IMG/VR virus record: IMGVR_UViG_3300042197_002946
Span: 62,001 to 126,000 of that record
Direction: 5' to 3' (one strand)
Length of the DNA: 64,000 bases
DNA from: a virus
How positions within the stretch are numbered: the first letter of the stretch is position 1; every line of letters begins with the position of its first letter. A program made the translations under genes and the position numbers. Shown here one piece after another: positions 18,525-63,993 of the stretch. The notes below the pieces were generated by a model. It was not told where the DNA came from. It ran no database searches and saw only the letters and a list, made by a program, of their open reading frames with translations.

Positions 18525-18541
18525 TATTATGTAGGGTGTAT

Positions 18542-18589
18542 ATGTATATATTCCTTCACAAATTTATATGGACCACTTTATGTCATTAG
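18542..18589 (+). CDS. Possible 15-codon leader ORF before the gene at 18580
   Basis: An ATG 3 bases after an AGGGTG site (matching the arrangement upstream of the gene at 5217) opens a 15-codon frame that ends in TAG 7 bases after the ATG of the fibre-like gene. The overlap would allow translational coupling for a gene that has only a weak site of its own. No conserved peptide feature is visible, so this is a possibility only. Confidence 0.25.
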   Translation: MYIFLHKFIWTTLCH

Positions 18590-19749
18590 AAGAAATTATC
18601 TCAACAAGTGTACAAATTGTAGAATATAGTGGTGAGGATAGACCACTTAAATTTGCTTATATTCTGGATTCGTCGTCCACACCTTATGGATTAGACCAGT
18701 TTATTATTAAAGGTTTAGGAATATCATTATCTAACAATAATATTAAAATTAAAAGTGGTACGAAAACATATTCTAAAGCCCCCGACGTTGTTATTTCGGG
18801 TGGAGGAGGCATGGGGGCAACAGCAGGTGTCATACTAAATACCGATCAAACTATAAAGGCTATAGAAATTACCAAGGGAGGCGCAGGATACACTTCTGCA
18901 CCATCAATTAGCTTGTCCGGAGGCACTGTAGACAAGGATGGTACAGATACTACTATTGAGGTGTTGGTCGAAAAGCCCGATACTCAATTAGATCCCCCAA
19001 AAGTTTTAGACAGCAATTTATATGTCTGGATTCATGGAAAAGGAGCATATTTAACACAAGAAACTAATTGGATCTTTTTAGAAGATTTAACTAATTTATA
19101 TACTAAAATTGATAAAATTTATACTACTACAGATAATGGGGCTTATTTGACTAATAGTCACGATAAAATTAATGATAAGCTTAATCAAATTAGAAGCCTA
19201 GAGCGAGGAAATGGCTATATTGTGGTGGCTAAAACTGATCAAACATTACCTTTTGTGTGGTATAATAGTACTGTTGGTATACCATCTCAAAAAATAGAAA
19301 GAATAGTGTTTGATATTGAACAGTGTTATGATATTAATAAACAAAGCGTAGATTTTATAGACGCTAATGCCAAAGCTATTCGTCTAGATCAGAGGGTTGG
19401 GGTTTGTCGTAACGATTATTCAGCCACGGTCTCAGTAGTAATAAACCTAACTAATCTACGTAAAAACACTGATTATCATATTCATTTAGACTCATCTAAT
19501 AAGAATATTCTGTTTATTGATCAAGACTTTTATCTTAACAACAATCAATTATCTGATCATTCAGTTTATGCTAAGGTGAAATTTATTAACAATACAGTTA
19601 ATAGCATATTTAGTATAGATGCTTCTTTAAATATTGGAAATACTAATATTGATAGAGATGTACTTAGTATATATGTTGATTGTCCGCCTCCTCCAGCGCC
19701 CACGCCGACACCACGCCCTGCCCAACCCGTTGTTAGGATTGTGGAGTAA
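18580..19749 (+). CDS. Tail fibre-like protein with Gly-rich and beta-sandwich modules
   Basis: Two in-frame ATGs lie at 18568 and 18580. The second is preferred because a weak GGA lies 7 bases upstream and the product then begins Met-Ser-Leu like the preceding protein. Residues ~60-125 carry a Gly-rich motif (ITKGGAGYTSAPSISLSGG) familiar from tail and fibre proteins of T4-like phages. Residues ~155-235 repeat the Lys-Ile-Asp-Lys-Ile-Tyr ... Leu-Pro-Phe-x-Trp-Tyr module of the gene at 5871. A cysteine-bounded beta-sandwich (~240-370) and a short Pro-rich tail (PPPPAPTPTPRP) follow. The ~389-residue product is thus partly paralogous to the gene at 5871 and is probably another appendage subunit. 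Confidence 0.6.
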   Translation: MSLEEIISTSVQIVEYSGEDRPLKFAYILDSSSTPYGLDQFIIKGLGISLSNNNIKIKSGTKTYSKAPDVVISGGGGMGATAGVILNTDQTIKAIEITKGGAGYTSAPSISLSGGTVDKDGTDTTIEVLVEKPDTQLDPPKVLDSNLYVWIHGKGAYLTQETNWIFLEDLTNLYTKIDKIYTTTDNGAYLTNSHDKINDKLNQIRSLERGNGYIVVAKTDQTLPFVWYNSTVGIPSQKIERIVFDIEQCYDINKQSVDFIDANAKAIRLDQRVGVCRNDYSATVSVVINLTNLRKNTDYHIHLDSSNKNILFIDQDFYLNNNQLSDHSVYAKVKFINNTVNSIFSIDASLNIGNTNIDRDVLSIYVDCPPPPAPTPTPRPAQPVVRIVE

Positions 19750-19757
19750 ATTAGATT

Positions 19758-22292
19758 ATGAAATTAAATGCTACTTATACATTAACTACTGGTACGACTG
19801 TTGATCCGGCATACCTTACCCCGTCTTTTGCAACATTGTCTGATGATAGCGATGCTTTTACTAGCAGTACTAAGGTAAAAGCTTCTGCCACATCAGCAAC
19901 ATATAGCAGTCCAACAACAAGCCATGTGGCAACAGCAGACGCTGGTATTGTTATGGATTTGGGAGCGCTAAAGACTGTATCAACTTTACGAATAAAAGGG
20001 TCTGTTGGTATAGAGTATGGTTCGGGATCTTTAGCTACAAGCTCTGCTAATCCTATAGTGACATATATTAGTGGATCAAATACTAACTCTACATCAACAG
20101 TTAATACTAAAAATTTTGGAGCTAGTAATAAGTTTGTTTCTGGTCAGTCAGGTATTTTTACATCTGTGGGCGATTTAGAATATCTGTTTGTGGATGACAA
20201 CTATGATTGCTCATCAACTTTTCCTACTATTGTACCAAATAATGCTCCCAAGTTTTTTGATGCCAATCAAACTGCCAGATACAAAATTCAGTATAGTGTT
20301 ACTGGCAATGCTTATTTAGATTTTCAAGATAACATACTCACAGCACCAAATGGACAAGCACTAGACCTTACTGTCCAATTTCCATCCACTATAGGACAGA
20401 TAAGATATATCAAGCTAAGTTGTGTTGGATCATCGTCAAATCCTGTTAAACGTAAATTTGCTTATAAAAATTCATCAGCTATAAATGACGCATATACTGT
20501 ATTAGGACAAAGACCTAGCTCTAGTATAGATACCAATAGTACTTCTGTTCAGTACAATACCTCGACCAACGACTTCTATCCGTCTATTATCATCGATCTA
20601 GGATCTGCTCAAACTTTTGATGCTGTAGGAGTAAGGCTATACGGTATATCCGGTAATAGTGCTGTATTCATCGGAATCGGTCATTCTAACGATGGAACAA
20701 CTTTTTCAGATGCAACAACTAGTTTTGGTCAAAATATTAGCGGAGGGACTATATATCATATCAATAGCGTTACCGCACGATATATTCGTATTTCGGCAGT
20801 AGACTATTCGTCCTTTGGTGTTGGTCAATACCAATATTTTTACTACTATAGTTTATGGGTTGGTAAAAGAAAAACTTGTCCATTCATGACTTTTGGTTCA
20901 GCATCCAATATTAGTGTTACCGGCGGATCAATTATAGACAGCTTTTTGACTTTGTCGTCTTTTTATGCCGATGACGGGGTGGCCGCACCAACCATTACCT
21001 TGACTCAAGACCTACCATCAACAACCACAGTCTCTGGTGGCACAGCACAACTCAGTGTGTTGGGTACGGGGAGTGGAGGAGCAGCAGTAACTTATCAATG
21101 GCAAAAGAAAGAAGCTAATGGATCAGCATTTGTTAATATTCCTAATGCTACATCCAATACTTTAACTCTAAATAATCTAACGAATGCTGCTGATAATGGA
21201 GATCAGTATAGGGTCATATTATCTGCTACCGGAGCTGCTGATCAGACTACTAATATTACAACACTGAATGTTCCATTGCCATCAACAACATATGCATTAT
21301 CTTCTCTTATCAACGACACCCCATCAGTATTGTATAATGATACTATACAAGAAGGCCAAACGCTAAAAGTAAACATTACTGCTAGCAAGGCTCCAGAAAC
21401 TTTCAATACTAGTTCTGTAACAATATATTGGAGAAGATTAGGTTCTGGTCAAAGTGCTAGCGACGCTGATTTTAACAATGGTGTTCCTGGAGGATTAGTA
21501 ACACTAACAGGAACAGGAACAAATCCACAAACAGTTACAGGACAACTATTATTAGTAGTTAGTGCTGATTTATTAACTGAAGGCTCCGAAAATTTTCTAA
21601 TAGCATTTTATGACGACGCAGCTTATAGCAATGAGGTCTCTAGAACTTCAATATTTACTATATCTGATACTAGCGTAGGTAATACGTCAGTTCCTTCTCC
21701 CACACCAACTCCTCCACCGACAGCAACTCCAACACGACCCATACCGTCGTCTACAAGAGATTCTCAAGGTTGTTTTATTGTACCATTTAAAGGATTAATA
21801 ACCAAAACACCTACTGGAACATGCACCCCAACACCAACTACAACCATTACTACTACTCCTACTCGCACACCAACGAGAACAGCTTTTAGTACTCCAACAC
21901 CTACCAGAACTAGAACACCACTACCAACAGTTACTCCCACCAATCAGCCCACCAATACTCCGCGATTAAGCCAAACCCCTACCAATACTCCAACAAGTAC
22001 AGTAACTCCCACTAATACTCCAACAGGCACTTTTACTAGAACACCCACACCCACTAGTACTATCACAGCTAGTATCACCAAAACACCCACAAGCACTCCA
22101 CAACCATCACAAACTCCCACACGAACTCCTCTACCAACTCCAACAAGAATATGTCCGCAACAAGCTCCTCCTAGCTGTGGTGCTTGTTTCCAGGCGGTAG
22201 TAGTGGGCGAAACTGTGGGGCCTGACGGATGTTTAATATCTATTTATGAATGTTTGTATATTCCAAATTGCGGTCAAAATGTACAAGTATAG
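19758..22292 (+). CDS. Adhesin-like virion protein: discoidin-like, Ig-like and Calx-beta-like modules
   Basis: An 844-residue protein with recognisable extracellular-type modules. Two regions (about 15-240 and 245-375) share a hydrophobic-Asp-Leu-Gly-(Ala/Ser) motif followed by a VxxLRI-like strand and later an (R)YIK/RIS strand, as in F5/8 type C (discoidin-like) carbohydrate-binding domains. Residues ~410-510 match an Ig-like domain (YQWQKK ... DGDQYRV pattern). Residues ~515-640 look Calx-beta-like, with EGSENF-x-I-x-FYDD. Two Thr/Pro linkers (~645-663 and ~682-800) lead to a short Cys-rich end with at least six cysteines. Discoidin-like and Ig-like domains on phages generally bind glycans or weakly to surfaces, so host or matrix adhesion is likely. 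Domain calls come from motifs only. Confidence 0.65.
21802..22153 (+). repeat. Thr/Pro-coding tract (gene 19758)
   Basis: About 117 codons of TPT/TRTPT/TNTPT type between the Calx-beta-like domain and the Cys-rich C-terminus. A smaller tract at 21692-21748 precedes it, the two separated by a ~17-residue non-repetitive island. Confidence 0.85.
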
Positions 22293-22323
22293 TTGGGGTA
22301 TACTTAGATAAAGGATCTCTATA

Positions 22324-25300
22324 ATGCAAGAAATTATCGTCAATACATGTGAATGCCCGTTCGAAGTAGCGGCAATAATAGATTTAGCAGATCTGGTTCC
22401 TGGCACAGTTTATAAATATAAGCTAGGACTGATGAATACCGGAAATGCTATTTTTCACCCTCCAGAGGGAGAATTTCTGGCCGATAGCTCTACGGACACA
22501 CTTAATGTTACCATTTATCTAAAGGATAATCCTAATAACTATTATTTAGTTAATGTAGAATTATTTGATCCATTTTATGGTAATGTTCGTAGACAGGTGG
22601 TTTGTATTAAAAATTCTGGATCTCCTAATTGCTCGGCTATGCAATGTACTCCTACGCCGACCCCAACCCCCACAAGATACCCATATAAAATTGATAGACA
22701 TTTAGATATATCTAATTATAAGATTAGTTCATCAGATAATAAGTTATTCGGAGCATATCGATCTACTATTTCTGTCAGAGACTGGGTAGAATTCTTAAAT
22801 AGCGTAGCTCAGTATGATGATATTAATACTTTGTGGAAGCCACAAATGCAGGCCGATATTCAATGTGGTATCAAGCGCACATACGATGGCTTTTTTTATG
22901 TATACACTATAGATGGTTGTGACGTTGATGAATCTGGTTGCTATTCTAATGATTCAGAACATGCTAATAGAACCATAAGTTATGTGAGTTGGAGTGATCT
23001 TGCTCGTTATGCCAACTGGATACATAATGGTAAGCCTAAAGGACGGCAAGGACCAGAGACCACAGAAGACGGATCGTACCCACTATACGGTAATCGCTAT
23101 GCTGCCCCAGGGATTCCCTCTCATAAAGGTGCTCGCTTTTGGGTTGATACCCAAACTGTAGTACAGCAGTGTCCGGTAACTGCTACTCCTACAAATACTC
23201 CAACTCCGTCTGTCACCATTGGATTAACTCCTACTGCTACTCCTACCATGACGGCAACAAGAACACCAACACCCAGCATAACTCCGCCACCTCCTTCTGC
23301 AACCCCTACTACCACACTTACTGCAACTCCCACAACAACTACCACCTTAACTGCAACGCCTACGCCCACACCAACAAACTTACCAGTTGGTTTGAGTATC
23401 TCTTCACAGCCCGATCCTGATGTGTTTACAGCAATAGGTATTAATCAAACACTGTCTGTAACAGCAGTTGCTGTTCCTAATAATATTACAATATTGTATC
23501 AGTGGCAAAGAAGTACTGACGGCGGCTCATCATGGTCAAATATTGGAGGTGCTGTTAGTAGTTCATACACTATAAACAATCCTCAGTTAAGCAATAACGG
23601 TGATCAGTATAGGGTATTGGTTAGTGGTAGTGCTCCTGTAGGATTTAATAATCCCACGCCGATTACAAGTGAGGTTTCCGTTTTATCTGTTACACAATCT
23701 CAAATATTCATCACAACACAACCAGCTAATGTTACTACCGCTGGTACTACAGCATCTTTTACGGTAGAAGCCCAAATTGATCCTGACTATTGTTCTCTGT
23801 CTTATCAATGGCAAAGAAGTACTGATGCCGGATCGACATTTAATAATATAGCCGGGGCTACATCGTCATCTTTATCTTTAACAGATCTTACCACGGTTAA
23901 TAGTGGTTATGTTTACAGGGTGCTAGTTTCTGGTACTGGTGGAGCTGAGAATGTAACTAGCTCTACAGCAGTTTTAGTAGTCAATGCTCCAGAGATCTCC
24001 ATATTGTCTCATCCCACTCTAACTACTTCTGTTAATGCTTCGGCTTCGTTCAGTGTATCAGCTACCATTAATGATCTAGCGTCACCCTATACTTTAACTT
24101 ATTCTTGGGAAAGAAGCACAAATAATGGATTAACTTTTGAAAGTATTCCAAATTCTAATAGTTCGACTTATAATATCAATAATGTTACCAGAATTCTCAA
24201 TGGCTCTATCTATCGAGTAGTTATTAGCTCCAATGTCGGCTCTGCTCCAGTTACATCCAACGATGCTACTCTGGTTGTAAACGATAATTATGGAGGTTTG
24301 TTAGTATGGGGTTCCAATGGTAGCAATCAATTAAATTTTACAGGATCAACCACTACTCCCAGATTTACTGATAAGATTACTAACATATATCGCTCAGCAG
24401 CGCTGGGTCAAAATCATATGTTGTTGGTCAACGCTTCGGGAGTTTTAGAGGGTTATGGTGTTAATACACTAAGTCAATCTCTAGGAACCAACACCACAAA
24501 TATAGTTAAAGTTGCAACAAAATATAATCATAATTTAGCGATTAAAAAAGAAACAGTAGGATCTTCTACAATAGACAGGTTATATTCTTGGGGGGCCAAC
24601 TTATATGGTCAGTGCGGCCAAGGAACAACATCAGCATCAATAAATTCAGTAACAGCCATAACTAGCGATAGTAATTCTTATATTGATATTGCTACCGGAG
24701 AAAATCATAGTTTAGCTGTTAGATCCAATGGTATGATGGTAGCTTGTGGGAGAAATGACTTTGGTCAATTAGGCTTAGGCAATACTAATAATCAAACGTC
24801 TTTTGTTACTGTGAGTGGCAATATATCTAGTGTTGCTTGTGGGCAATCTCATTCTGCTGCTATTGCTACTGATGGTAAATTGTATACATGGGGCAATAAT
24901 GGGGTTGGCCAATTAGGTCGAGACCCATCAGTCAGTCCCACAGATACTAATCCAATTGCTGTAAGTGGTTCATCATGGGTCAAAGTTGTTTGTGGCCAGA
25001 ATTTCACAGCAGCATTAAACAATAGCAACGAGGTATACACATGGGGAGATAATACTGTAGGACAATTGGGTAGGAGCGCCTTGGGATCATCTGCTTATAC
25101 TCCAACTAAAATTAGTGGAGTATGGAATGATATTAGCGCTGGCAATTTGCATATGATAGGAATACAAACAGATGGCACTTTATGGGCTTGGGGATCTAAT
25201 GTACAATCTCAAGTAGGAGATGGTACCTCTGTTAATAAAACATCTCCGGTACAGATTGGAGCATATCCTGATAATCAGTGGGAAAGAGTGTTTGCTGGAG

Positions 25301-26874
25301 GAAATAGTTCGGCGGCCACTAGATCAGGAGCAGTTATTGTTATAACATCTCAACCAGCCAACATTGTTGAGTCCAATGATGGTTCTGCTTCTTTCACGAT
25401 TACTGCTACTATTACTGGTGGAGGATTATTATCATATCAGTGGCAAAGAAGCGTTGATGCTGGGCTAACGTTCTCTAATATTGCTGGAGCAACAAACTCA
25501 ACACTTAGTCTTACCGGACTTAATAATAGTTTTGATAACTATAGATATCGTTGTTTAATTACGGGTACCGAAGGTGCATATCCAGTAACATCATCTGCTG
25601 CCGTACTCATCGAAAAGAGTGCTTCAGTATACTTTAGGGGCTTCCAAGCTGCTGATGGGGCAATACCATATAGCATTGGTTCACCTTGGGTTGAGTGGAA
25701 CGTTGCTAATGACTCATGGAACTATAATTCCACCTCTGTGCGTAGATCCGGGAGCGCCTCTGATGTATTTGCTAAGAATAGCGGAACAACCTTAAAACAA
25801 GTAGTAAGATGTGGCCCTTCGACAGTCGCATTCTTATCTTCTGACGGGAGGGTTTGGGTCACAACAACTGGCAACCAATATAACATTTTAACCGCAAGCT
25901 ATAGTTTCGTAGCAACTATCAACAATCCAGCCGGGGAGACTATAGTAAAACTAATTGGTAACTATGGCATTTATAGCAGTGCTAGCATATTTGGTAGGGC
26001 TTTTTTATGGGGAATAAGCGCTAGTGGTAAACTATACGGAATTACCTCCCAATGGCCAGGATCGACTTCGGGATGGAACAGAATAGGTAATGATCTGGTA
26101 GTTACTGATGCTGCTGCTTGTCAATATAATGGAACGCATTATCCAACTGTATATGCTATTTCTGCTATTGATGGAACTTTGTGGGCATGGGGAGACAATA
26201 GGCTAATAAACAGCACAACAACGCCTTCTGCTATACAAAATGCTACAACTCAGCCAGTTAGAGTAAGTACTGATACATGGTCAGCTGTAGCGGGTAATAT
26301 TGGAGGCTTCTTTGGTATCAAGAGTGATGGTGCGGTGTATCGTATAGTAGGACAATGGGGTGGAGGAACAGTGAGCGGACGTAATGGTAGCAATACTACC
26401 TCTTTTAATAGCGGAACCCTTGGACTGACTAGCAATACTGTTGTGCCAGTATTAGTAGATAATAGTGTTGCTTATAGCAAGTTAGCTGCTAATAATAGTC
26501 TATTGATTGGCTATGATGTTAATAATAAATTACATATTAATCCTAATTTTAATGTTGCAAGAGATCTGCCAGTTGGTTGGAATAATATTAGCGATATTTT
26601 ATTAGGAACAAATACGGCTACCACTCAAGGAGCAGTTATATTAACAGACAATTATACCAGTAACACAAATATTGCCATGATGCTCACTATTGCAACCTTA
26701 ACATCTTCCGCCACATACTACCAGTATGGTGCCAATAATGCCAACATTTTATGGACCTCAAATACAACAACACCTTGGGGCAACGGAACAACAGCACCAG
26801 TAAATGTTAGAGCAGAATTTAAAAATGTAATTCCAGACTTTCCAGGTTACTGGCTAGCCATAAAGGATGACTAA
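22324..26874 (+). CDS. Giant virion protein: SUMF1/FGE-like fragment, four Ig-like domains, two RCC1 propellers
   Basis: A 1516-residue protein with an AAGGA site 8 bases before the ATG. Order of modules: an N-terminal Cys-bounded beta domain (1-105); a short PT linker; a SUMF1/FGE-like region (~120-275) with [27 protein letters not shown] and a TTEDGSYPL motif; a PT linker (~284-353); three Ig-like domains (~355-650), each with YQWQRS- or YSWERS-type and YRVL/V motifs; a seven-blade RCC1 propeller (~654-1000) with WG-x-N-x-x-GQLG repeats; a fourth Ig-like domain (~1004-1097); and a weaker RCC1-like region to the end (blades marked [19 protein letters not shown]). The FGE-like region stops early and no catalytic Cys pair is evident, so it is a ligand-binding fold, not an enzyme. 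It is probably a distal tail appendage. Confidence 0.7.
23175..23385 (+). repeat. Thr/Pro-coding tract (gene 22324)
   Basis: About 70 codons joining the truncated SUMF1/FGE-like region to the first Ig-like domain. Confidence 0.85.
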
Positions 26875-29800
26875 TGAGAATAGCAGTAAATTATAATGAT
26901 CTTATACAATATCCATTAACTATTTATAGAGTTGGTGGAGAATTTACACTAAGAAATGTATCTAATGGTACATTAATTACTCTACCTATAGGATACTCAG
27001 ATAATTTATCTATTTCTAGTCCTATACTGGTTGGTACCGTAGAAGACACATTTAATAATTTTACATATTCCTACGAAGATATTATTGAAAAAGCTCAATT
27101 TGAGCATCCTGGCTATACTCAATTAGTATATGCTAGCTTAGAGTTGGTAATGTTAGATGCTTACTATAAGGTTGTTGCTTATTTAACAACCAATAATACC
27201 GGAGCATATGCTCCCACACTTATAGGTCCAGGATATCGTGCAACCATCGAATTCGGTAACTTACCACAGATAGATAGCTGTTATGGTCCTGATGACTATT
27301 GGGTAATAGGAAAAAAAGATGACAGTAGTGTTTTTAATAATATTACGCCATATTCGGTTATAGAACCTGTTTTATTGGTTACGCCCACGCCCACTCCCAG
27401 TGCTACCCCCACACTAACGCCAACGATTACACAAACCACAACACCTACTTTAACTGCTACTAGTACTCAGACTCCTACGCGAACTCCGGGACCTACCAGA
27501 TCTCCTACAACAACACCGACAGCATCTATTACTCCAACTCGCACTCAAACCACAACGCCCACATCTACTAGTACAGTTACTCCCACCCCAACTACTACAA
27601 CTACATTAACTCAGTCCAGCACCCCGACTCTCACACCAACGCCAACATCCACAACCACACTTACTGCAACACAAACTACCACACCAACACCGACTACCAC
27701 ACCCACATTAACTCCTAGTTTAACTGCTACATCTACTCCTACTCCTAGTATTACCACTACTCACACACCCACACAAACTCGTACACCTACTGTTACTCCC
27801 ACTCCAACAGCATTAGAATCTAACGTACTAGTATGGGGAGATAATTCTTATAGTCAATTAGGTATGGGGTATTTGCTCAACGATAGGTTTATTGATCCTC
27901 CACGCTTAGGAGAACAAACTAATAATAGACTAGCCAACTATCAGAATATTTTGAATTATAGAGAAGACGGCACAGATAGTGTTGTTTATTTTAATGCAGT
28001 ATCCGCGGGTTCTAATTTTAGCGTAGGCATAGATGTCAGCGGTTCTTTGCATAGCGTTGGGGTTAATGCATGGGGGCAATTAGGATTAGGTAACTTTGAA
28101 AGCAAATCAATGTTTACTCGTATCTCCGACCCTTCACTTAATGGTGTAGTATTCAAACAAATTAGTTTAGGTAATATGCACGCCATAGCATTAGATTCTG
28201 ATGGTAATGCATGGTCATGGGGTCGTAATTCCGATGGTCAATTAGGTAATCATTATTTACCAAGACCAATTAACTCTATGACTACTATTGATTCGGATAT
28301 TAATTTGTATGATTTTGTAATCAGCTACGATGTAACAGATGAGTTTTCATTAAATGACGAAGTTCTGATTGATTATTATAGCGGATCCATACATAAAACT
28401 AGTGTTGGTAGAGTATGGACATCTCCTACCTTCAGCAATAATGAAACAACGATTAGAGTACAGTGGGAAAATTATGAATCTATAGATTTCAGTATAGTCC
28501 CTACATTATTATCAAAAACCAAAGTAGATATTGATCCTGGTTTATTGGCCAACCCTACTCCTAGAAAAATATATGCTTATAAAGAATACAGATATTGCAT
28601 AGATAATGATACTGTATTTTTTGCTACTCCAACACCCACACCCACCGTTAGTTACACTACAACAACCACCCCCACCATAACAGCAACGACTACTCCGTCC
28701 ACAACCACGACGCTTACAGCTACTCCTACCAATACTTCCACCAATACTCTAACTCCAACTCCTACAGTTAGTCAATCTCCTTCACCGTCGGCATCTCCTG
28801 GTCAAACACCCACACCAACGGCCACGCCTACTTCTACAACAACTTTGACAGCTACTCCTACAGCTACTTTGACTCTTAGTGCTACTCGTACACAAACCCC
28901 CACCAATAGTCCCACGCCGTCTACAACAGTCAGTGTTACTCCAACAAGCTCAGTAACTCCCACAAATACATCGACTGTTACTCCAACGATGACGGTTACT
29001 CCGACCAAGGAAGCTTTCCCTGTGTTAACAATATATGGAGACATTAGATCTATTTTAACTAATAGCAATAAATCTACTGTCATGTTGAATGTATACGATG
29101 AAAATTCTAGTCCTGCATTGTTATATAAAGCTAAAATTCTGGATGTTGAGTGGTTATCAAATTTTGGAATAACCAAAGTTCGTATCGATCATCCAATGAT
29201 ATCAACTATTGATCCCAAAAAGATGAAATATGTTTCTATTGTTCGCTTTAATAATGGATCCTCTTACGAATACGAATCTTTTGCTAGAGTACATGCCGGA
29301 GAGTCACACTCCATGGCTCTTGATACTAATGGCCGTTTGTTTGTATGCGGTAGTAACAAGTATGGGCAGCTGGGTCTTGGTTTAATTCAAGAGCTAGACG
29401 ACGCTAGAGAACTACGCCTAGTGAATGGCAAACCAGTAGTTCGTATTGGATTAACTACAACAATGAAATTAGTGAATCCTCCTCCTGGACGAGGCTATTG
29501 TTATAATAGAGGATTTAAATGGAAAAAGATATCCTTGGGTCGTTTTCATACGCTAGCTTTAGATGCTTTAGGTCAATTATGGGTCTGGGGAGACAATGAT
29601 TTCGGACAGCTAGGCTTGGGAGACTCTACAACACTATTAGCCAAGGCTATTGTGGTACAGGAAAATTATCCTTCTATTGGAAGCATAGGAGAAAGAGACT
29701 TGCCAGATAGAGCTAATGTTGTTATTCCATATTCTCCATTACCATTTAAAATTTATGTATTGCAAGACAACTATTCTGATGTACAAAACCAAAGCATTGA

Positions 29801-30398
29801 AACAGACTATTGGTTGGATATTGCTGCAGGAGCTTATCATAATCTAGCTATTAAGAAAGAATTTTCTAGTATAACATCTTACGGTTCATTATGGGCGTGG
29901 GGCGATAATACTTTTGGTCAATTAGCTAGAGTAAATACTTCTCCCAAGATTGTAGCTACCAACGCTAACGAAATAGATATATCTCAAGTAGATTTCGGTT
30001 TTGTTAACAACGATAATAGTCGTAACTATTGGAAGAGGGTTTATGCTGGTCGTATAACATCATTTGCTTTGAAATCAACTGATGGTAAACTATATTCTTG
30101 GGGCGAAAGTAATCTAGGTCAAACCGGTAATGTTACATCTAGAGCAGCTTTAGCTAGTTCTATACGTAATATTCCATCGGTTGTGAATCTGCCAAGAATA
30201 CCTTTTGAATTACCCACCAGCGCTAGCGGCCCATGGGGTATTATTAATGTAAGCAATGATGTGGATCAAATAGATAATATTGGTATAGGACATTTGGCTA
30301 ATCATATATTAGTGATACCAAATAGATTATTTCCCACGCCAACACCGACGCCTAGTGTGACGGCATCGATCACGCCCACGCCGTCATCTAGTGGATAG
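26874..30398 (+). CDS. Virion protein with RCC1 propeller interrupted by a PT-linker insertion
   Basis: An 1174-residue protein whose ATG overlaps the preceding TAA by one base (TAATG). Residues 1-165 are unrecognised; ~169-312 are a Thr/Pro linker. Three RCC1 blades follow (~315-460: VLVWGDN, a [11 protein letters not shown] blade, [12 protein letters not shown]). A ~350-residue insertion (~465-810) then contains two small beta regions flanking a second Thr/Pro linker (~583-712). Four more blades (~810-1110: [49 protein letters not shown]) complete seven. A third short PT tail ends the protein. The seven blades could close into one propeller with the insertion looping out. It is probably a tail appendage; ligand unknown. 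Confidence 0.65.
27379..27811 (+). repeat. Thr/Pro-coding tract 1 (gene 26874)
   Basis: About 144 codons of TPT/TTTPT type leading directly into the first RCC1 blade. Confidence 0.85.
28621..29010 (+). repeat. Thr/Pro-coding tract 2, inside the RCC1 propeller (gene 26874)
   Basis: About 130 codons of TPT type lying within the insertion between RCC1 blades 3 and 4 of the same protein. A third short tract ends the gene at 30329-30395. Confidence 0.85.
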
Positions 30399-49215: not shown

Positions 49216-50004
49216 TTAATCTCCTATTTCTATAATATTGTCTTGGTTATTAGCTGTGTCCTGTATAATCTTAATTAGATTATTTACTATGATAGATGCT
49301 CTAGCTTTTGAAAAATCATGTTTCTGAGTAATCCTGATAAGCTTGATCCCTTTACCGATAAGTAATCCTGTTTTTTTGGAATCATAGGCTATATTCCTCT
49401 GTAAAGCATCATTTCCCCAAACCGGTTCAAAATGAGACGGACCGTCAACTTCTATAGCTATGTTATGCTGTGGCAGAAAGATGTCGAGCTGTAATTTTGT
49501 ATTTGACAAGAATTGTTCTTTGTGAAAGTCAACCTTGTATCCAGCATTTAATAGTCCTGACAGTATAAATTTTTCTAATTTGGAACCCTCCTTACTAGAT
49601 CTTCTTACGGCATCAATAGCCTTTTTTTGCATAGTATGTTTTTGATCTTCAGACAAATTTTCCCATTGCTGTTTAGCATTAGCTGATCTGGCCTGTTTTT
49701 CCTGCTTACTCAGATCCTCCCAACTCTGCATAACGCCTAATCCTATTTTCATAGCAGTATCAGCATCTCTTTTTGTTCCTTTGGTTGGATGCTTATGCTT
49801 CCCTGTTCTCAAAGCATTTTTTTGCGCTGTGCTTTTGTCCCTAAGAGGAATATTAAATTTTTTAGCATCCCTACGTACCTTATTGGGGTAGGTCTGAAGC
49901 TTTTCTGCCACATCTCCTAAACTCATATTTTTTTGAATATATAATTCTTTAATAATTTGTTTTTTTTGAGCTTCTGATAATTGACTATAGTTTAATGTGC
50001 TCAT
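49216..50004 (-). CDS. HTH plus Vsr-like PD-(D/E)XK endonuclease, possibly homing
   Basis: A 262-residue protein. Residues ~8-55 resemble a helix-turn-helix (MSLGDVAEKLQTYPNKVRRDAKKF). A basic, coil-like middle follows. The C-terminal domain (~135-255) has an EKF-helix, QLDIFLP, then IAIEVDGPSHFEPVWG and LLIGKGIKLIRI, the order of conserved strands in Vsr-like/DUF559-type nucleases. Asp in LDIFLP, and Glu, Asp and His of EVDGPSH, are candidate catalytic residues, as in the EDxHD homing nucleases. It may be a freestanding homing endonuclease or a phage recombination/repair nuclease beside the annealing protein. Its 3' end carries the ribosome binding site of the annealing gene. Confidence 0.6.
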   Translation of the reverse strand: MSTLNYSQLSEAQKKQIIKELYIQKNMSLGDVAEKLQTYPNKVRRDAKKFNIPLRDKSTAQKNALRTGKHKHPTKGTKRDADTAMKIGLGVMQSWEDLSKQEKQARSANAKQQWENLSEDQKHTMQKKAIDAVRRSSKEGSKLEKFILSGLLNAGYKVDFHKEQFLSNTKLQLDIFLPQHNIAIEVDGPSHFEPVWGNDALQRNIAYDSKKTGLLIGKGIKLIRITQKHDFSKARASIIVNNLIKIIQDTANNQDNIIEIGD

Positions 50005-56629: not shown

Positions 56630-57010
56630 TCAGAACGCAACAGTTTCTTCTTCCTCAGAAGTTGACGCTGCTGCCTTCTTGGAAATCTTTGTGATCTTAG
56701 AAAAATTATTAACTCTAACCTTGAGTGTGCTATGCTTCACACCGTCCTTTTCCCAAGAATCATTGCGCAGAGTACCTTCCACTAATACCAGGTCACCCTT
56801 CTTGAATGATGAGGCAATTGTTTCTGCGCCGCTATCCCACGCTTCACAAGAGATGAAAGACGTAACTTTATCCTTGCTTCCATTGGCCCTGCTAAACTCT
56901 CTAGAAACAGCAACCGTAAAGTTGACAACAGCTGTCTTTTTATCCGACGCTGTGATATATCTTAGCTCGGGATCTCTTGTTAGATTTCCTCTCAAAATGA
57001 CAATATTCAT
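56630..57010 (-). CDS. ssb: Single-stranded DNA-binding protein
   Basis: A 126-residue OB-fold protein of bacterial SSB type. It opens MNIVILRGNLTRDPELRY, followed by VVNFTVAVSRE and ISCEAWDSGAETIASSFKKGDLVLVEGTL, which are the diagnostic strands of the family. The C-terminal ~15 residues are Glu-rich and end in Val-Ala-Phe, a short version of the acidic tail that recruits partner proteins, with a terminal Phe as in many SSBs. Start at the ATG with AGGAG 7 bases upstream; an earlier TTG is rejected. It coats ssDNA at the phage replication fork. It forms its own transcription unit with a consensus promoter and terminator. Confidence 0.92.
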   Translation of the reverse strand: MNIVILRGNLTRDPELRYITASDKKTAVVNFTVAVSREFSRANGSKDKVTSFISCEAWDSGAETIASSFKKGDLVLVEGTLRNDSWEKDGVKHSTLKVRVNNFSKITKISKKAAASTSEEEETVAF

Positions 57011-57017
57011 ATGCAAT

Positions 57018-57053: not shown

Positions 57054-57081
57054 ATTATAAGAATGAGGCGTCGAGTGTCAA
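57054..57081 (-). promoter_or_regulatory. Consensus sigma70-type promoter for ssb
   Basis: On the minus strand, TTGACA (57076-57081) and TATAAT (57054-57059) are separated by 16 bases. Both hexamers are perfect matches to the bacterial sigma70 consensus. The -35 box overlaps the TGA stop codon of the polymerase C-terminal gene, so the promoter is embedded in the gene junction. Transcription should start near 57046, giving an ssb leader of about 35 bases. It implies use of the host housekeeping RNA polymerase for this gene. Confidence 0.85.
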
Positions 57082-58703
57082 GATTCTGGTATAAAACACT
57101 TTTCCACAATCAAACCGCTGCCAGCCTTTTTAGATTTGGTACCTATAAATACCAACACTTCGTTTTCTTTTAATAGATCTTTAAACTCACCATATTGTTC
57201 TGGAAACATTACTACAGAATCCAAACCTCCTGAGCTATCAAAAATCTCCAGAAAGGACATATTCGCCCCTTTATTTTTTCCTTGTTTGGTTTTGATCACA
57301 CTTAACCTACTAATCTCTCCCATGATAGCAACCTTTTTTCCTCCAGTTACTCCTTGAAAGTCTTTGCAAGATATCAAATTAGACTCATAATTTTGCATAT
57401 AACAATCTGTTTTAGTGCATGTCAAAGGAATACCTAATAATGCTGCTTCGGTCTCTGCTATCCACTGCATATTATCTTTTAATGAATATGGTGGATGGTC
57501 TATGCTATTGATAAATTCTTGTATTAGTACTTGTCTCTTTTTTGTTACTTTACATGTGGTTAATAGTTTGATAAAAACATCTTTAAATTTGATGCTTGTG
57601 ATATCTATATTATTAGTTGTGATTTGTTCTAATTCTTTTTTAGTTAGCTTATTAAGCATTTCTAAATAAAATAGTAGCTCTGTTCTAGGTATTTTATAGT
57701 CATCGAAAGCCCCTACGGAAACAATCGCCTTTGCTGCTGCACTATTAACATTGGTCAATAATCTACAAAACGTTGGTATTATTCCAGTTATATTTTTATT
57801 TATTAAATCCAAATGCAACTTTTCAATTGCTTCGTATACCGATTCCCCCACTCCTTTAATATTAGTAAGTCCAAAATAAATTTTATTATCAATAATAGTA
57901 AATTCTTTGTTCATAAATTTAAATTTAGGTAATAAAACCTCTATATTCATGGAACTAGCATTGTGTACCAACTCTTTAATTTCTTGATGTGGGTCTATTT
58001 TATCTTTAGCAAATCTTAGGTAGGAGACAAAAAAGATCTGTGGAAAATGTGCCTTAGCATATGCTGATAAATAACCATTGATAGCATAGCTAATAGCATG
58101 ACTTTTATTAAAAGAATATCTTTGGCTTTTTTCAATCCATCCGAAAATTTCTTCTGCCTCATGAGCATTAACGATACCCTTAGTATTACAGCCATTGATA
58201 AAAACTGTTTTCAACTTGGCCATCTCTTCTGGTTTTTTCTTACCAATGGCTTTTCTTAACATGTCGGCTTCTTGTAAATCAAACCCAGCCAACTCCTGTG
58301 CTATTTGCATACTTTGTTCTTGATAAACCATTTCTCCATATGTGGTTTCGAGAATATTTTTTAGACTGGGGTTATAATAGTCTATACTCTCTTGTCCATT
58401 TTTTCTATCAATGAAATGATTACTAACGCTCTTGCCTTCTCGAATAGCCTCTAGACATCCTGGTCTCATAATGCTAATCAAGCCAGCCAGTTGCTCTATA
58501 TTTTCTGGCTTTAGCTTTTTCGCCATGCTCTGACCTAGTCTAGACTCTAATTGAAAACATCCCTTAGTATTACCATCGGATATTAATTCCCAAGTTCTAG
58601 AACAGTCTAGAGGAATAGAGTTTACGTCAAACTCTAACAATTCTGTATTTTCGCTGTCTACAGGAAACTTACAGCCACAATCAAACTGATAATATTTTGT
58701 CAT
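57078..58703 (-). CDS. dnaE: DNA polymerase III alpha subunit, C-terminal half (split gene)
   Basis: A 541-residue protein covering fingers to OB-fold of the family C replicase. After a ~25-residue Cys-containing start (FDCGCKFPV) it aligns with DnaE from DVNSIPLD onward: GCFQLESRLGQS, the RPGCLEAI and NHFIDRKNG segment, VYQEQSMQIAQELAGF, EADMLRKAIGKKK, and SFNKSHAISYAINGY. The last ~110 residues (GEISRLSVIKTKQGKN, FIGTKSKKAG) look like the OB-fold. The catalytic palm is not here; it is encoded 3.4 kb upstream. Start in an ATGA overlap with the exonuclease gene. It must associate with the N-terminal half to make an active polymerase. No intein sequence is present. Confidence 0.88.
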   Translation of the reverse strand: MTKYYQFDCGCKFPVDSENTELLEFDVNSIPLDCSRTWELISDGNTKGCFQLESRLGQSMAKKLKPENIEQLAGLISIMRPGCLEAIREGKSVSNHFIDRKNGQESIDYYNPSLKNILETTYGEMVYQEQSMQIAQELAGFDLQEADMLRKAIGKKKPEEMAKLKTVFINGCNTKGIVNAHEAEEIFGWIEKSQRYSFNKSHAISYAINGYLSAYAKAHFPQIFFVSYLRFAKDKIDPHQEIKELVHNASSMNIEVLLPKFKFMNKEFTIIDNKIYFGLTNIKGVGESVYEAIEKLHLDLINKNITGIIPTFCRLLTNVNSAAAKAIVSVGAFDDYKIPRTELLFYLEMLNKLTKKELEQITTNNIDITSIKFKDVFIKLLTTCKVTKKRQVLIQEFINSIDHPPYSLKDNMQWIAETEAALLGIPLTCTKTDCYMQNYESNLISCKDFQGVTGGKKVAIMGEISRLSVIKTKQGKNKGANMSFLEIFDSSGGLDSVVMFPEQYGEFKDLLKENEVLVFIGTKSKKAGSGLIVEKCFIPES

Positions 58704-59389
58704 TGCGTTACAAAAGAGTCCCTAAATTTAATCTTCTTAGATAAGTTTCTGTGCAATCTCATGAATCGAATCAATAATTCTGCACAGTCTTGTACGTCTT
58801 TAAGAGCATCATGAGCGCCGGCTTTGCTAATGCCCATATAGTCTCTGATATTATCCAGAGATAGGTTCTTAATGTCTCCGTTGCTTTCAAACCAATAGAA
58901 TAATAGATTCATCATATCAAGAGTATCTCGTGGATAGAATAAGCTTGACCCATTCTCATTGTTTACGTATCCTAATTTTCTACTAAATCTCTCAACTATT
59001 TTCATATCAAACCGTATAATGTTATACCCAGAAGCAACAGGAGCAGAAAACATGCTTTTTTTGCTTCTATTCAGATGATATATTTCTAAATATTGTGCAA
59101 ACATTGACCACGCTTGTTGCTGGGACATGGAGTTCTTCCACGATTCCAGTATTTGCTCTTTAGTAGAGTTTCTGACCTTAGCATGAAACTCTAATATGTC
59201 CGAATCGCTGTATGTATGATTAGGGTCATTCTCCAGTTTTTCTGGCTTGACCTGAATATTAAACTCAGAATCTTTCACAATAGATAGATTGTATGGATCT
59301 ACTATAATAGCGGCTATTTGAACAGGACTACAGGTCTCTGTATCAATACCGTCTGTTTCAAAATCAAAAACGCATATTTTATTTTTCAT
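58700..59389 (-). CDS. dnaQ: DnaQ-like 3'-5' exonuclease (DEDDh)
   Basis: A 229-residue protein with the three exonuclease motifs: FDFETDG near residue 9 (Exo I, Asp and Glu metal ligands), GYNIIRFDMKI near 121 (Exo II Asp), and AHDALKDVQDC near 192 (Exo III, His and Asp, DEDDh class). It overlaps the upstream RCC1 protein gene by 4 bases and the polymerase C-terminal gene by ATGA, so its translation is coupled to the replicase. It probably supplies proofreading, as the epsilon subunit does in bacteria. No clamp-binding motif is obvious. Degradative or RNase T-like use is possible but less likely given its neighbours. Confidence 0.85.
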   Translation of the reverse strand: MKNKICVFDFETDGIDTETCSPVQIAAIIVDPYNLSIVKDSEFNIQVKPEKLENDPNHTYSDSDILEFHAKVRNSTKEQILESWKNSMSQQQAWSMFAQYLEIYHLNRSKKSMFSAPVASGYNIIRFDMKIVERFSRKLGYVNNENGSSLFYPRDTLDMMNLLFYWFESNGDIKNLSLDNIRDYMGISKAGAHDALKDVQDCAELLIRFMRLHRNLSKKIKFRDSFVTQ

Positions 59390-61935
59390 TGTAGGATACT
59401 AGTATCGTCCTGTAGGGCTTCCAGAATAGAGAATGTATTATTATAGTATATTTGTAAATCTAACTTAGGTCCGCATACTATCCCGGAATCTGTGCGAACC
59501 CTCACACATCCTATAAGATAGTTGGCAGACATGGGTCTGTCCAGAGTAATTTTTGTAATATTAAGTATTGGATCGTAGACTACTCTTGTCGCATTAAGAG
59601 TAGCTGTTTGTTGATAAATATTGTCTATTTCTTCTTTTGTAGGATCTGGATTAGCTGATCTGAGCCAATAACTAACTTTAACAGCACCAGGCAAAATTTT
59701 ACCCGTAACATTATATGGAACAATCAATGTTCGCCTATCTGGTTTGTATTCATATTTAAATTGATTATTTATAGTGGGAACCAATTCTCTACTAAAATAC
59801 GTATAGCACACTATCCTATCAATTGGAATATAAATATAATGACTACTATCAACTATAGTTACAGAACCGCCGCGATTAGACACATAATTGCGTATAGGAT
59901 TATACATTTTGATATAACTATCAGTAGATTTAGTGCTAGCAGAAGTTTTTAATAGAGGGGTGTTAGATTTAGCGTCAAAATATATTTTACCCTGTAGTTG
60001 AGTATTAAAAATATCTCTTAAAAAACGAAAAGAATCGCCGGTAACTTTTTCATATTTAACTGTTTGGGGAGCATTAGGTATATGACCAACACCATCTTCA
60101 TCAGGAATACCTGTGATAATGGCTTGATATAGCTCATCTAATTCTATTTTGGTAATGCCAAAAAATTGTTTAGTTAATTCTGGATTGGTTTTTTCTGCTA
60201 AAAAATATTCTATGAGCTGCTTAGCATAAGTACCGACATTATATGTGATATATCTACGACCACTCGCGGCAAAATCATCAACAACTACATAACATGCATA
60301 CAGCCATTCTGTTAAAGACGCATCAATCGGAGGCTCTTTATTCCACCCATTACAAGTTGGAATCGGATCTTCTGGCTGTTGGGCTCTGATACGAATATAA
60401 GGATCAACAAAATTTTGAGCAAATGCACTGCTACCTTGAGATAACTCGTATCTGATAAGATACGGCTCTGTTAAAAATAAATCTTCGATGATAACTCGGT
60501 TGTTTTCGTCTACTGGCCAATTAACAGTCTGGTAAACTATCTGTGGATCAGTGGCATCTTTAGGATTGGTCTTAGTATGAAAAAACCCTTTACCAGGAGC
60601 CATAAATAAATCAAAAATATTACTTTCTAAAGTATTAAATGACTCACACAAACCTTGATATAGCCAAAATTTATTAGCAGTACTATATTTGATAGGTTCT
60701 TGTTTGTCATTGACTCTGAAAAAGTATAACGGAGCACTTCTATCGTACGAATTGACAGGTGGAGGGTTATCGGGATATGTTATAGTACCGCCTCGACCTA
60801 GATCTATTCCATGCAAATTAAAAGCATCTCCAGGTAGCAATTTATATGCACTTATATCTTCAAAATATGATGGAAAAGAAGACTTAGAAAAAATTTCTCT
60901 AGCATTTATTTTTTCAACAGGAGTATCTAAGTGTAATTCGTCATCCTCATTGTCTGTAAAATGCAAGCCTCCGAACAAGATAATATCTAATAGATTTCTT
61001 TTATTTGTAGCCAACATCATACCTTTTAAGGTAAATGGGTCTAGCTTATTAGGATACGATGAACCCAAATAGTCTATACCTGCCAGAGCTGAATTAAAAG
61101 CAAAGCTTGTCCCATATTGCTCTTGAGCAGATAGTACGTTTGGCCTATTATCGGACAATAAGTCTCCTATAGTAAATGTATCTATAGAGGGATATGTGGC
61201 CTCTACCTCGCTTAAAAGTTCTTTATATTTTCTATGCATACACAATGCATTTACTGGACAACAACCAGGAGCTATTTGATATGTGTCTACTTTTTTATAA
61301 AGCAGCCTGTCTCTATTGAAGGGGTCGTAAAGGGTAAAGTAATCTCCTATTGCTAGTCTGCCAAAAGTAGTAAACTCTCTCGGCACTAAATCACCAGACC
61401 AATCGGTATAAACTTGCACACCGCTACTAATCCTGGCGATAATAGTTTTAGGCCCAGTATCGACTGTTAAAAAAAGCTCTCCTTCGGGGTCTTGATAAGA
61501 CAGAGGGGTGATTTGGCGATATGTTTCAACAAAGTCTGACCCCAAATTTTGAAAAGTTCCCACGCCGTATGTTTTTTCGCTAGTTTGTGATATTAATGTA
61601 AAATATAAACCAATATTAATATCTATATTTTTACTTGTATTTATTGGAAAATTTATTTGTGTCGGCATTGTTAAATATAGAGTTTCTGCTGGCATAGCCA
61701 TTTGGCCCTCTACATTAGACCCCCACATCCATATACTCTTATCTTGCTTAAGTGCTACTGAATGATTGGCACCAACCTTAGCTTCTATCCAAGGTATAGC
61801 ATCATATTGAGGGATACCAGTAATAACCTTATAAGTTTCTGCGGTGTCTTTAACATTTCCTATGCCCAACTGACCATACTGATTATCTCCAGACGAATAT
61901 AGAATACCTTCTTCTATATACAGAATATGTCCCAT
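59386..61935 (-). CDS. Virion-like protein with N-terminal RCC1 repeats, located inside the replication operon
   Basis: An 849-residue protein. Residues 1-160 contain RCC1-type blades: LYSSGDNQYGQLGIG, then ANHSVALKQDKSIWMWGSN, then a degenerate blade. That is too few for a closed propeller unless it oligomerises. Residues ~160-849 are an unrecognised beta-rich region with the look of phage structural proteins (many Tyr, Asn and Pro loops, Ile/Val strands) and no enzymatic motif. It lies between the two polymerase halves, 4 bases overlapping the exonuclease gene and 29 bases after the small gene. Its repeat type matches three genes of the late block. It is probably a virion or moron-like protein that moved here; function unproven. 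Confidence 0.55.
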   Translation of the reverse strand: MGHILYIEEGILYSSGDNQYGQLGIGNVKDTAETYKVITGIPQYDAIPWIEAKVGANHSVALKQDKSIWMWGSNVEGQMAMPAETLYLTMPTQINFPINTSKNIDINIGLYFTLISQTSEKTYGVGTFQNLGSDFVETYRQITPLSYQDPEGELFLTVDTGPKTIIARISSGVQVYTDWSGDLVPREFTTFGRLAIGDYFTLYDPFNRDRLLYKKVDTYQIAPGCCPVNALCMHRKYKELLSEVEATYPSIDTFTIGDLLSDNRPNVLSAQEQYGTSFAFNSALAGIDYLGSSYPNKLDPFTLKGMMLATNKRNLLDIILFGGLHFTDNEDDELHLDTPVEKINAREIFSKSSFPSYFEDISAYKLLPGDAFNLHGIDLGRGGTITYPDNPPPVNSYDRSAPLYFFRVNDKQEPIKYSTANKFWLYQGLCESFNTLESNIFDLFMAPGKGFFHTKTNPKDATDPQIVYQTVNWPVDENNRVIIEDLFLTEPYLIRYELSQGSSAFAQNFVDPYIRIRAQQPEDPIPTCNGWNKEPPIDASLTEWLYACYVVVDDFAASGRRYITYNVGTYAKQLIEYFLAEKTNPELTKQFFGITKIELDELYQAIITGIPDEDGVGHIPNAPQTVKYEKVTGDSFRFLRDIFNTQLQGKIYFDAKSNTPLLKTSASTKSTDSYIKMYNPIRNYVSNRGGSVTIVDSSHYIYIPIDRIVCYTYFSRELVPTINNQFKYEYKPDRRTLIVPYNVTGKILPGAVKVSYWLRSANPDPTKEEIDNIYQQTATLNATRVVYDPILNITKITLDRPMSANYLIGCVRVRTDSGIVCGPKLDLQIYYNNTFSILEALQDDTSILQ

Positions 61936-61964
61936 AAGCTGTCCTACTTACTAAATGCTACAAG

Positions 61965-62147
61965 CTATTTTATTGTGACAGTAGCATTGTCCGGAATAAA
62001 AGTCTTTTCTCCGCTACTCACAACAACAGCATTGAGCTTTCTACAACAAGATACTCTAACTTCTGGTGTTTTTCTGTATTCAGTATTGTTGTGAATAAAG
62101 ACGGTGTCTATAGTAATATTAGCAAATGTTGTTTGATGTTCCGACAT
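61965..62147 (-). CDS. Small conserved-looking phage protein (60 residues)
   Basis: A 60-residue protein with an AAGGGA site 7 bases before its ATG. Both the site and the first 29 bases of the gene lie inside the 3' end of the polymerase N-terminal gene. It contains a beta-strand pattern (ITIDTVFIHNNTEYRKTP) and an adjacent Cys pair (SCCRKLNAVVV) followed by EKTFIPDNATVTI. Small phage proteins with a similar Cys-Cys ... Asn-Ala core are common and unassigned. It forms the left edge of the segment that separates the polymerase halves. No function is claimed. Confidence 0.6.
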   Translation of the reverse strand: MSEHQTTFANITIDTVFIHNNTEYRKTPEVRVSCCRKLNAVVVSSGEKTFIPDNATVTIK

Positions 62148-63993
62148 AGTTATTTCCCTTTAATAAAGATTGAATACACATAATTTTATCTAACATACCA
62201 ATACCTAGAATGTCAAACTTTACTATACCAAGAGATTCTAAATCTTGCATTTCCATACCTGCAATACTATTTCCGGTCTTAGAATCATACACCATTGGAC
62301 ATATTCCATCTAGATTATGGGCTGATATCGCAATACCGGCTGCGTGTTTAGATTGATTTGATTTGGTTCCTTCTAATCTAATAGCTTGCTCAAAGCGTTT
62401 TGCAAACAAGCCCGATATTGAGCCGTCATCATTAATTTGGCACCAATCTTTAAATTTATCTGGAGTATTCTCTAAGGCCCATTGAATAATGGAAGATTCT
62501 CCTCTATCTTCTTTCATTTCTTGAAGATCATCCGCTATCTTCGCTTCGTCCGGAATGTTTTTAGTAATTTGATTCATTTCCTCATAAGATAAACCTCCAT
62601 ATACTCTCAACACCTCTTTTAAGGCGCCTCTTCCTTTCATAGTATTAAATGTAATCATCTGAGATACCTTATGAGTCCCATACTTATTTTTAATATAGCC
62701 AATAACATTATCTCTTGTTGTCATAGGCACATCGATATCAATATCTGGCATAGATATTCTATCAGTAGAATTTCTTCCAGCATTATAGAATCTCTCAAAA
62801 AGCAAATCATATTTAATAGGATCTATATTGGTAATTTCTAATAAATAAGATACCAAACAACCAGCAGCACTTCCTCGACCCGGACCAGGAAGCCAAGAAT
62901 TTGTTCTAATATAATTTACAATGTCTTGAACGATTAAAAAATATCCAGACAAGTTAGCCCCTTGTAATACAGATAGTTCCTGTTTGATCCTGTCTGCATA
63001 AATTTTTTGGTCTTCTTCGGATATTTTGGTAAAACCACGTTTTCTCCATCCATCTCTACATAATTGTCTTAAGTATTCATCCTCATTATCTATAAATTGT
63101 GGTAGTTGAGGTCTATTAAGAATATTGTATTCTTCACACATATCAGCTACTAAATTAGTATTACGCAATTCTTCTTCTGTGTGTAAATTTCTCATTTCCT
63201 CATCAGACAAAATATAGAAATTATCGGACTTAAAAAAGCAGCCAAGAGGCACATCTTCATTATTAATAATCTTTTTATTAATTTCTGGGAAAGTGGTTTT
63301 AAGAGTATTACAAAGCAGAACTCTTTGATCTATAGCGTCCTCTTTGTTGGCATAGTGGGCATCGGGAGTGGCTACTACTTTTAATTGGTGCTTTTTAGCT
63401 AAGCTGCGAATAATATCTGTCAGAGTAATTTGGAATGGTAAATGATCTTTATCCATTAATTGGGCTTCTAAAAATAATCCGTCAGACCCAAAAATAGACT
63501 TTAATTGATCTATTAATAAACTAGCTGGATTCAAATCTGATCCATTATTTATGATATCGGCCAAGTTAGAGCCCATGTGACCAGTAATACAGATCAGTCC
63601 GGACGTATCCAGGTCTTCGAGTTCGTTTATGCTGATCCTGGGCTTTCTATAAAATCTGCTTGGGTCGTTTGATGCAGAAACTAAACTGATAAGGTTTTTC
63701 CAGCCTTGGATGTTTTTTGCCAGCACCAACATGTGAGATAATTGACCGTTATCTTTGTGCTGATTTGTGGACTTGTCTTTACAAATATATAATTCGCACC
63801 CTAGAATAGGCTTAATTCCTTGCTTTTTCATAGCCTGATAAAATGACACAGCTCCAGAGATAGAGCCGTGATCTGTAATAGCACAGGCTGATGACCCTAT
63901 GTCAGCGCATCTTTTAGCGATCTGTTCGGGCTTACTGAGTCCGTCTAATAATGAGTAGTGGGAGTGTGTATGAAGAGAGATATATGATGACAT
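62119..63993 (-). CDS. dnaE: DNA polymerase III alpha subunit, N-terminal half (split gene)
   Basis: A 624-residue protein starting with the canonical PHP opening (YISLHTHSHYSLLDG), so the ATG is the true start. PHP motifs: His-x-His near residue 8, ITDHGSISG, GCELYI and PDAHYA near 213, all apparently retained, unlike the degenerate PHP of E. coli. The palm holds PGPGRGSAAG, PDIDIDV (two catalytic Asp) and, near the end, VKFDILG (third catalytic Asp). The frame ends a few residues after the palm, where DnaE normally continues into the fingers. The last ~13 residues are translated from the ribosome binding site and start of the downstream gene, so they are not DnaE-like. Together with the C-terminal half it makes ~1165 residues, the length of a full DnaE. 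Confidence 0.9.
   Translation of the reverse strand: MSSYISLHTHSHYSLLDGLSKPEQIAKRCADIGSSACAITDHGSISGAVSFYQAMKKQGIKPILGCELYICKDKSTNQHKDNGQLSHMLVLAKNIQGWKNLISLVSASNDPSRFYRKPRISINELEDLDTSGLICITGHMGSNLADIINNGSDLNPASLLIDQLKSIFGSDGLFLEAQLMDKDHLPFQITLTDIIRSLAKKHQLKVVATPDAHYANKEDAIDQRVLLCNTLKTTFPEINKKIINNEDVPLGCFFKSDNFYILSDEEMRNLHTEEELRNTNLVADMCEEYNILNRPQLPQFIDNEDEYLRQLCRDGWRKRGFTKISEEDQKIYADRIKQELSVLQGANLSGYFLIVQDIVNYIRTNSWLPGPGRGSAAGCLVSYLLEITNIDPIKYDLLFERFYNAGRNSTDRISMPDIDIDVPMTTRDNVIGYIKNKYGTHKVSQMITFNTMKGRGALKEVLRVYGGLSYEEMNQITKNIPDEAKIADDLQEMKEDRGESSIIQWALENTPDKFKDWCQINDDGSISGLFAKRFEQAIRLEGTKSNQSKHAAGIAISAHNLDGICPMVYDSKTGNSIAGMEMQDLESLGIVKFDILGIGMLDKIMCIQSLLKGNNYVGTSNNIC

Follow-up and report, generated by a model that had tools for sequence, protein, structure and literature searches.

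The 64,000-nucleotide (nt) stretch analysed here, referred to below as the window, covers positions 62,001 to 126,000 of the IMG/VR virus record IMGVR_UViG_3300042197_002946 and is one part of that 150,336-bp record, to which our record-wide counts refer. Close to its end it encodes the alpha subunit of DNA polymerase III (DnaE, a C-family polymerase) in two separate genes, dnaE-N and dnaE-C, with a gene for a predicted 3'-5' exonuclease and a small open reading frame (ORF) lying between them (Table 1).

Two dnaE genes and the position of the split

The two dnaE ORFs are separated by 3415 bp, in line with the 3.4 kb given in the initial annotation, which was made from the sequence alone. Pfam detects PHP and DNA_pol3_alpha in dnaE-N, and DNA_pol3_finger, HHH_6 and a weakly matching OB domain in dnaE-C, so the proposed allocation of PHP and palm to one gene and of fingers and OB fold to the other holds. 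So does the placement of all the catalytic aspartates in the N-terminal gene: in alignments to the Taq and E. coli enzymes both PDIDID (aligned to PDFDVD) and VKFDILG fall in dnaE-N, and we take their aspartates to be the counterparts of E. coli D401/D403 and D555, respectively. When compared with the NCBIfam model TIGR00594 (1022 positions), the two proteins tile almost perfectly, dnaE-N covering positions 1-575 and dnaE-C positions 578-1021. This complementary coverage means that the two proteins make up one DnaE with no piece of the model missing, and the C-family domain set (PHP, palm, thumb, fingers, HhH, OB) is complete only when both are taken together. The initial description of the halves as a complete DnaE thus stands as far as this model goes but not for the C-terminal tau-binding domain of E. 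coli DnaE, which is missing from dnaE-C, the protein ending past the OB fold. Modelled on its own with AlphaFold2 (AF2), dnaE-C reaches a mean predicted local distance difference test score (pLDDT) of 90, and its top fold matches are DnaE structures.

In phmmer alignments to solved structures, dnaE-N ends shortly past the third catalytic Asp motif and dnaE-C sets in at the counterpart of E. coli residue 584. This junction, in the intact DnaE of phages and Salmonella, is a short linker that runs from the post-palm helix to the '(L/I)D...IPLDD' start of the fingers, which puts the break between palm and fingers, as had been read from the sequence. Moorella phage MTATph1, Geobacillus phage GBK1 and Salmonella dnaE share the domain order and motifs, but their ORF is continuous across the linker.

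The exonuclease nested between the halves matches RNase_T (Pfam, E=7.5e-12) and phrog_192, annotated in PHROG as 'DNA polymerase exonuclease subunit'. Its DEDDh residues D9, E11, D128, H193 and D198 (motifs FDFET, RFD and HDA..D) are kept in a 28-member alignment, and it has three relatives in cultured phages, all of them weak. It is most likely the proofreading (epsilon-like) subunit of the split polymerase, judging from its family and its place in the operon.

The small ORF that follows dnaE-N in the window belongs to a family that we call SCC, in which F17, C34 and C35 are invariant in 60 aligned homologues. It has no match of weight among Pfam models and Protein Data Bank (PDB) sequences, and its PHROG matches are weak and of unknown function. 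The AF2 barrel is confident (pLDDT 91.6), and its best fold matches, to eIF5A/EF-P-type proteins, are weak (E=0.009). In a second subclade (L008/L202 type; relatives are designated by locus number) an unrelated ORF of ~75 aa (amino acids) occupies this position, and dnaE-C lacks the N-terminal CxC extension; an SCC match recorded in the L008 clade proved spurious, failing a stricter test. The extension is present in 107 of 109 SCC-positive loci (L126 and L129 have SCC but not CxC) and in none of the 98 SCC-negative ones. A metal site shared by the CxC extension and the SCC protein is only a lead, because the co-occurrence is essentially a single clade-level difference and has these two exceptions.

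Table 1. Genes of the dnaE operon in the window, in order of transcription
Feature	Position	Strand	Remarks
dnaE-N: PHP, palm, thumb, three catalytic Asp	62119..63993	-	624 aa; based on Pfam, TIGR00594 and structure alignments; conserved in relatives
Small ORF, 'SCC' family	61965..62147	-	60 aa; start overlaps dnaE-N end by 29 nt; AF2 five-stranded beta barrel
RCC1-repeat protein	59386..61935	-	849 aa; between small ORF and exonuclease; window and L005-L007 only
DEDDh 3'-5' exonuclease, DnaQ/epsilon-like (predicted)	58700..59389	-	229 aa; overlaps RCC1 gene and dnaE-C by 4 nt each
dnaE-C: fingers, HhH, OB fold, N-terminal CxC beta-hairpin extension	57078..58703	-	541 aa
Single-strand DNA-binding protein (SSB)	56630..57016	-	128 aa; next gene downstream of dnaE-C

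Conservation of the arrangement among uncultured phages

More than 300 related loci were gathered through profile searches, a query with a distant member, and exonuclease-anchored searches that are independent of DnaE. They stem from IMG/VR and a few contigs of metagenome-assembled genomes, and cover many metagenomes. Both halves are present in 292 fetched loci (207 unique by exonuclease sequence), a non-random sample made up of the best 80 matches per scan, in which some loci share one contig. The split lies at the palm/fingers junction in all 292, with no fused gene among them, and every one has the exonuclease between its halves. A C-family polymerase is usually, though not by strict definition, a single polypeptide; here it is spread over two ORFs in 292/292 loci. 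Fifteen records, the largest of 244 kb, each hold exactly one palm and one finger match, in separate ORFs. In trees built from 74 non-redundant split members together with intact phage and bacterial DnaE, the split members are monophyletic (74/74 taxa), with a support of 1.0 for the concatenated alignment, 0.99 for N and 0.996 for C. Far from being a local oddity, the split is fixed throughout a large clade of phages.

Both halves are under strong purifying selection, as judged by ratios of nonsynonymous to synonymous substitution rates (dN/dS) of ~0.05-0.06 for dnaE-N and 0.02 for dnaE-C, with 0.03 for the small ORF, all read against a dS that is close to saturation. The dnaE-N value of L007 was left out as an alignment artefact caused by an internal stop. 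This stop is a TAG within a 9-nt in-frame insertion inside the PHP motif (HVHS-stop-RSHYSLL), so that the annotated dnaE-N ORF of L007 would start downstream of it.

The usual gene order is N, small ORF, exonuclease, C, with ~870 nt separating the halves, and this order looks ancestral. Packing is tight: the median spacing across loci is +1 nt between N and the small ORF, -8 nt between the small ORF and the exonuclease, and -4 nt between the exonuclease and C. Three IMG/VR relatives, L005, L006 and L007, whose proteins are 77-89% identical to those of the window, share its order of N, small ORF, RCC1-like gene, exonuclease, C and SSB. The RCC1-repeat gene (~2.5 kb) is confined to these four loci, which form a supported clade, and its insertion between small ORF and exonuclease accounts for the 3.4-kb gap. 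Judged from this distribution, the gap is derived and recent, and the RCC1 gene a late insertion. The gene diverges faster than its neighbours (47-71% identity vs 77-89%), and its N-terminal region resembles RCC1 regions of large plus-strand genes in the window itself.

Probable assembly of the divided polymerase and competing explanations

The two halves very probably reassemble non-covalently into one C-family replicase, which would be the only replicative DNA polymerase of the phage. This mode of assembly most simply accounts for termini that carry no intein or intron signal and for genes that overlap. In the mechanism we propose, the polymerase would be permanently divided in the surface linker that joins palm to fingers. 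Both halves would be translated from one operon and would then associate non-covalently into the working enzyme, the N protein supplying the catalytic aspartates and the C protein, with its fingers, HhH and OB fold, the greater part of the surface that binds nucleotide and template. The nested DnaQ-like exonuclease would act as its epsilon-like proofreader and the small ORF product as a possible further subunit; any function of the small protein at the palm/fingers seam is speculative. The initial annotation had raised the possibility of a full-length dnaE elsewhere in the genome, and we found no second dnaE in the 150,336-bp record, which holds one palm match and one finger match only. Nor did PolA, PolB (PF00136) or a bacterial beta clamp give a match, either in this record or across a set of nine searched, which may be incomplete, with positive controls detected; the clamp may be supplied by the host or may have gone unrecognised.

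Several points weigh against this interpretation. That the halves associate and that the product polymerises DNA is something we infer, and the identification of the exonuclease draws solely on its sequence family and gene position. The small protein is not one family across the subclades, so it is not essential to a common mechanism everywhere. Every member of the clade is metagenomic, none being cultured.

Covalent rejoining of the halves, whether by a split intein or by cis- or trans-splicing of an intron, has precedents in the intein-split DnaE of cyanobacteria and in phage polymerase genes, which often carry introns or inteins (PMC6892783, PMC12363816), and within the clade itself L162 carries a cis intein in dnaE-C and L061-type loci a LAGLIDADG ORF in dnaE-N. 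We nevertheless consider it very improbable. The tail of N beyond its last DnaE motif is only ~15-25 residues long, and the stretch leading up to the first motif of C only ~24; intein halves would not fit, and these termini lack intein motifs. Intein models gave no match on the window's dnaE-N and dnaE-C, yet they found the L162 intein used as the positive control; the profile check thus bears out the earlier statement that no intein motif is seen at either end. The cyanobacterial (C/S)FNKSH intein site, which had been described as intact, indeed runs uninterrupted through dnaE-C as SFNKSHAISYA. Searches with Rfam introns found none in the window region (E<=1) or, at the gathering threshold, in seven relatives. 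The intervening genes overlap their neighbours and occupy the whole gap, leaving no room for an intron, and splicing would have to excise coding genes.

Alternatively, the products of dnaE-N (PHP, palm) and dnaE-C might have separate functions and form no joint polymerase, as their distinct genes and the confident AF2 model of the C half alone would allow. We regard this as quite improbable: the halves always occur together, as single copies in one operon, the searches detected no other polymerase, and we know of no activity for a C-family palm without fingers. Errors of assembly or sequencing, or decay of the gene, have next to no chance of being the explanation. The arrangement was first seen in a single metagenomic record; it recurs, however, in 292 loci from many metagenomes, under the purifying selection described above. 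An assembly error, which the initial annotation had named as a possible refutation, was rejected, since relatives from independent assemblies have the same order.

More weight goes to a reading in which the split is a mere scar of a mobile insertion, for example of an HNH cassette, that brought in the exonuclease and the small ORF and left their nesting functionally meaningless; we hold it to be possible, if on the whole unlikely. In L048 and L154, N and the small ORF do have HNH-type ORFs between them, L007 has one upstream of N, an HNH ORF separates the two DnaE parts of phage KLEB27-3, further insertions sit between exonuclease and C in L155 and L172, and the small ORF differs from subclade to subclade. 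On the other hand, the exonuclease is between the halves in every member, the termini of both halves are precise, and the tight packing is kept across deep divergence (~40% identity). This alternative concerns origin and is compatible with non-covalent reassembly as the explanation of function. A bolder variant, which we offer only tentatively and think rather unlikely, takes the cassette to be an obligate multi-subunit replicase of alpha-N, small barrel protein, epsilon and alpha-C; the palm/fingers seam would then be bridged by the proofreader, the small protein or both, and the nested order would serve co-translational assembly.

Known split polymerases and features of individual loci

We found no published description of the present arrangement in the open-access literature searched. 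The closest published case is found in group 2.2 jumbo phages, whose minimal DNA polymerase III alpha is encoded as two standalone proteins (Iyer et al. 2021, PMC7824862): there, too, a phage C-family polymerase exists as two proteins that are thought to reconstitute the enzyme. That enzyme is pared down to a minimal core and lacks PHP and other domains, whereas the present one keeps PHP, HhH and OB; its genes are distant, whereas ours form one operon with a nested exonuclease; and its N part binds NTP and its C part Mg and template, whereas here all catalytic aspartates are in N. It also accompanies PolB, for which the nine possibly incomplete records of the present clade gave no PF00136 match. 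Cyanobacterial DnaE is likewise encoded by two genes, but there an intein ligates halves that are broken at the CFN site of the fingers, in contrast to a palm/fingers break with no detectable intein. In other families, the PolA of MEP401/402 is split with a small ORF in between (PMC10580990) and the PolB of MIJ3 with a putative split intein (PMC6892783); in both cases a replicative polymerase extends over two ORFs with something between them, though the polymerase families differ from the present one.

The cultured Rossellomorea phage phiT1 (gp20/gp19/gp18, PV767480) has a dnaE cut at the same junction, into parts of 573 and 469 aa that flank a 49-aa ORF. It differs in having no exonuclease between the halves and a small ORF that looks unrelated, and its identity is ~30-34%. 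In the trees phiT1 changes position, but it never falls within the split clade and has intact phage DnaEs nearby, which points to an independent split. The palm/fingers junction has therefore probably been cut at least twice and may be a natural split point for C-family polymerases. In two further cultured phages dnaE is split elsewhere: Bacillus phage Jayan (L174; 410/634 aa, with a 76-aa ORF between) and Bacillus phage KLEB27-3 (L175; 691/428 aa, on either side of the HNH ORF mentioned above).

Few enzymes are as constrained as replicative polymerases, and yet throughout this phage clade the only recognised replicase is divided exactly where the catalytic palm meets the fingers, the gene of the likely proofreader sitting inside the cut. 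The system would be a test case for fingers closure without a covalent link, and the small protein is a candidate for a new polymerase-associated protein. An exonuclease flanked by half-dnaEs could serve as a marker for this uncultured group of large phages; note that annotation pipelines may log such split genes as fragments or errors. Searches with PF17289 (terminase) and PF04984 (tail sheath) to place the phage gave no match.

Individual loci carry further changes. Members of the second subclade (L008:5525-7096 and relatives) have a shortened PHP with a degenerate first metal-binding motif (INCKTHFSL vs LHTHSHYSL), so that PHP activity seems to be lost there. In L061 (5126-8119), and also in L065, L067, L068, L070, L071 and L199, dnaE-N is interrupted again right before PDIDID by a LAGLIDADG-type ORF, which spreads the polymerase over three ORFs; the upstream PD-(D/E)XK gene of these loci looks intein-bearing. 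In L162 (7707-10046) the intein (MRPG/CISG...VVHN/CLEA) is in frame within dnaE-C and was found by Pfam Intein_splicing. In L155 (11740-14366) a ThyX gene and a DUF1559/N-methylation (prepilin-like) gene lie between the exonuclease and dnaE-C, and a similar ORF set fills this interval in L172 (11740-15380); the prepilin-like gene is of a type common in Planctomycetes and a possible clue to the host. In L007 (2061-2860) the HNH-type ORF is directly upstream of dnaE-N, the gene with the internal stop described above.

Upstream of the cassette and on the same strand are genes for a PD-(D/E)XK nuclease, a deoxynucleoside monophosphate (dNMP) kinase, a Toprim primase, a DnaB helicase and a RecA-like protein; together with the SSB gene on the other side they make a replication-gene neighbourhood that speaks for the proposed polymerase. 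An HNH/homing endonuclease-like ORF (262 aa, window 49216-50004) is found among the genes downstream of the replication cassette. The plus strand of the window carries, at 13338-30398, very large genes (1174-1728 aa) with RCC1 repeats that are partly homologous to the RCC1 gene of the operon.

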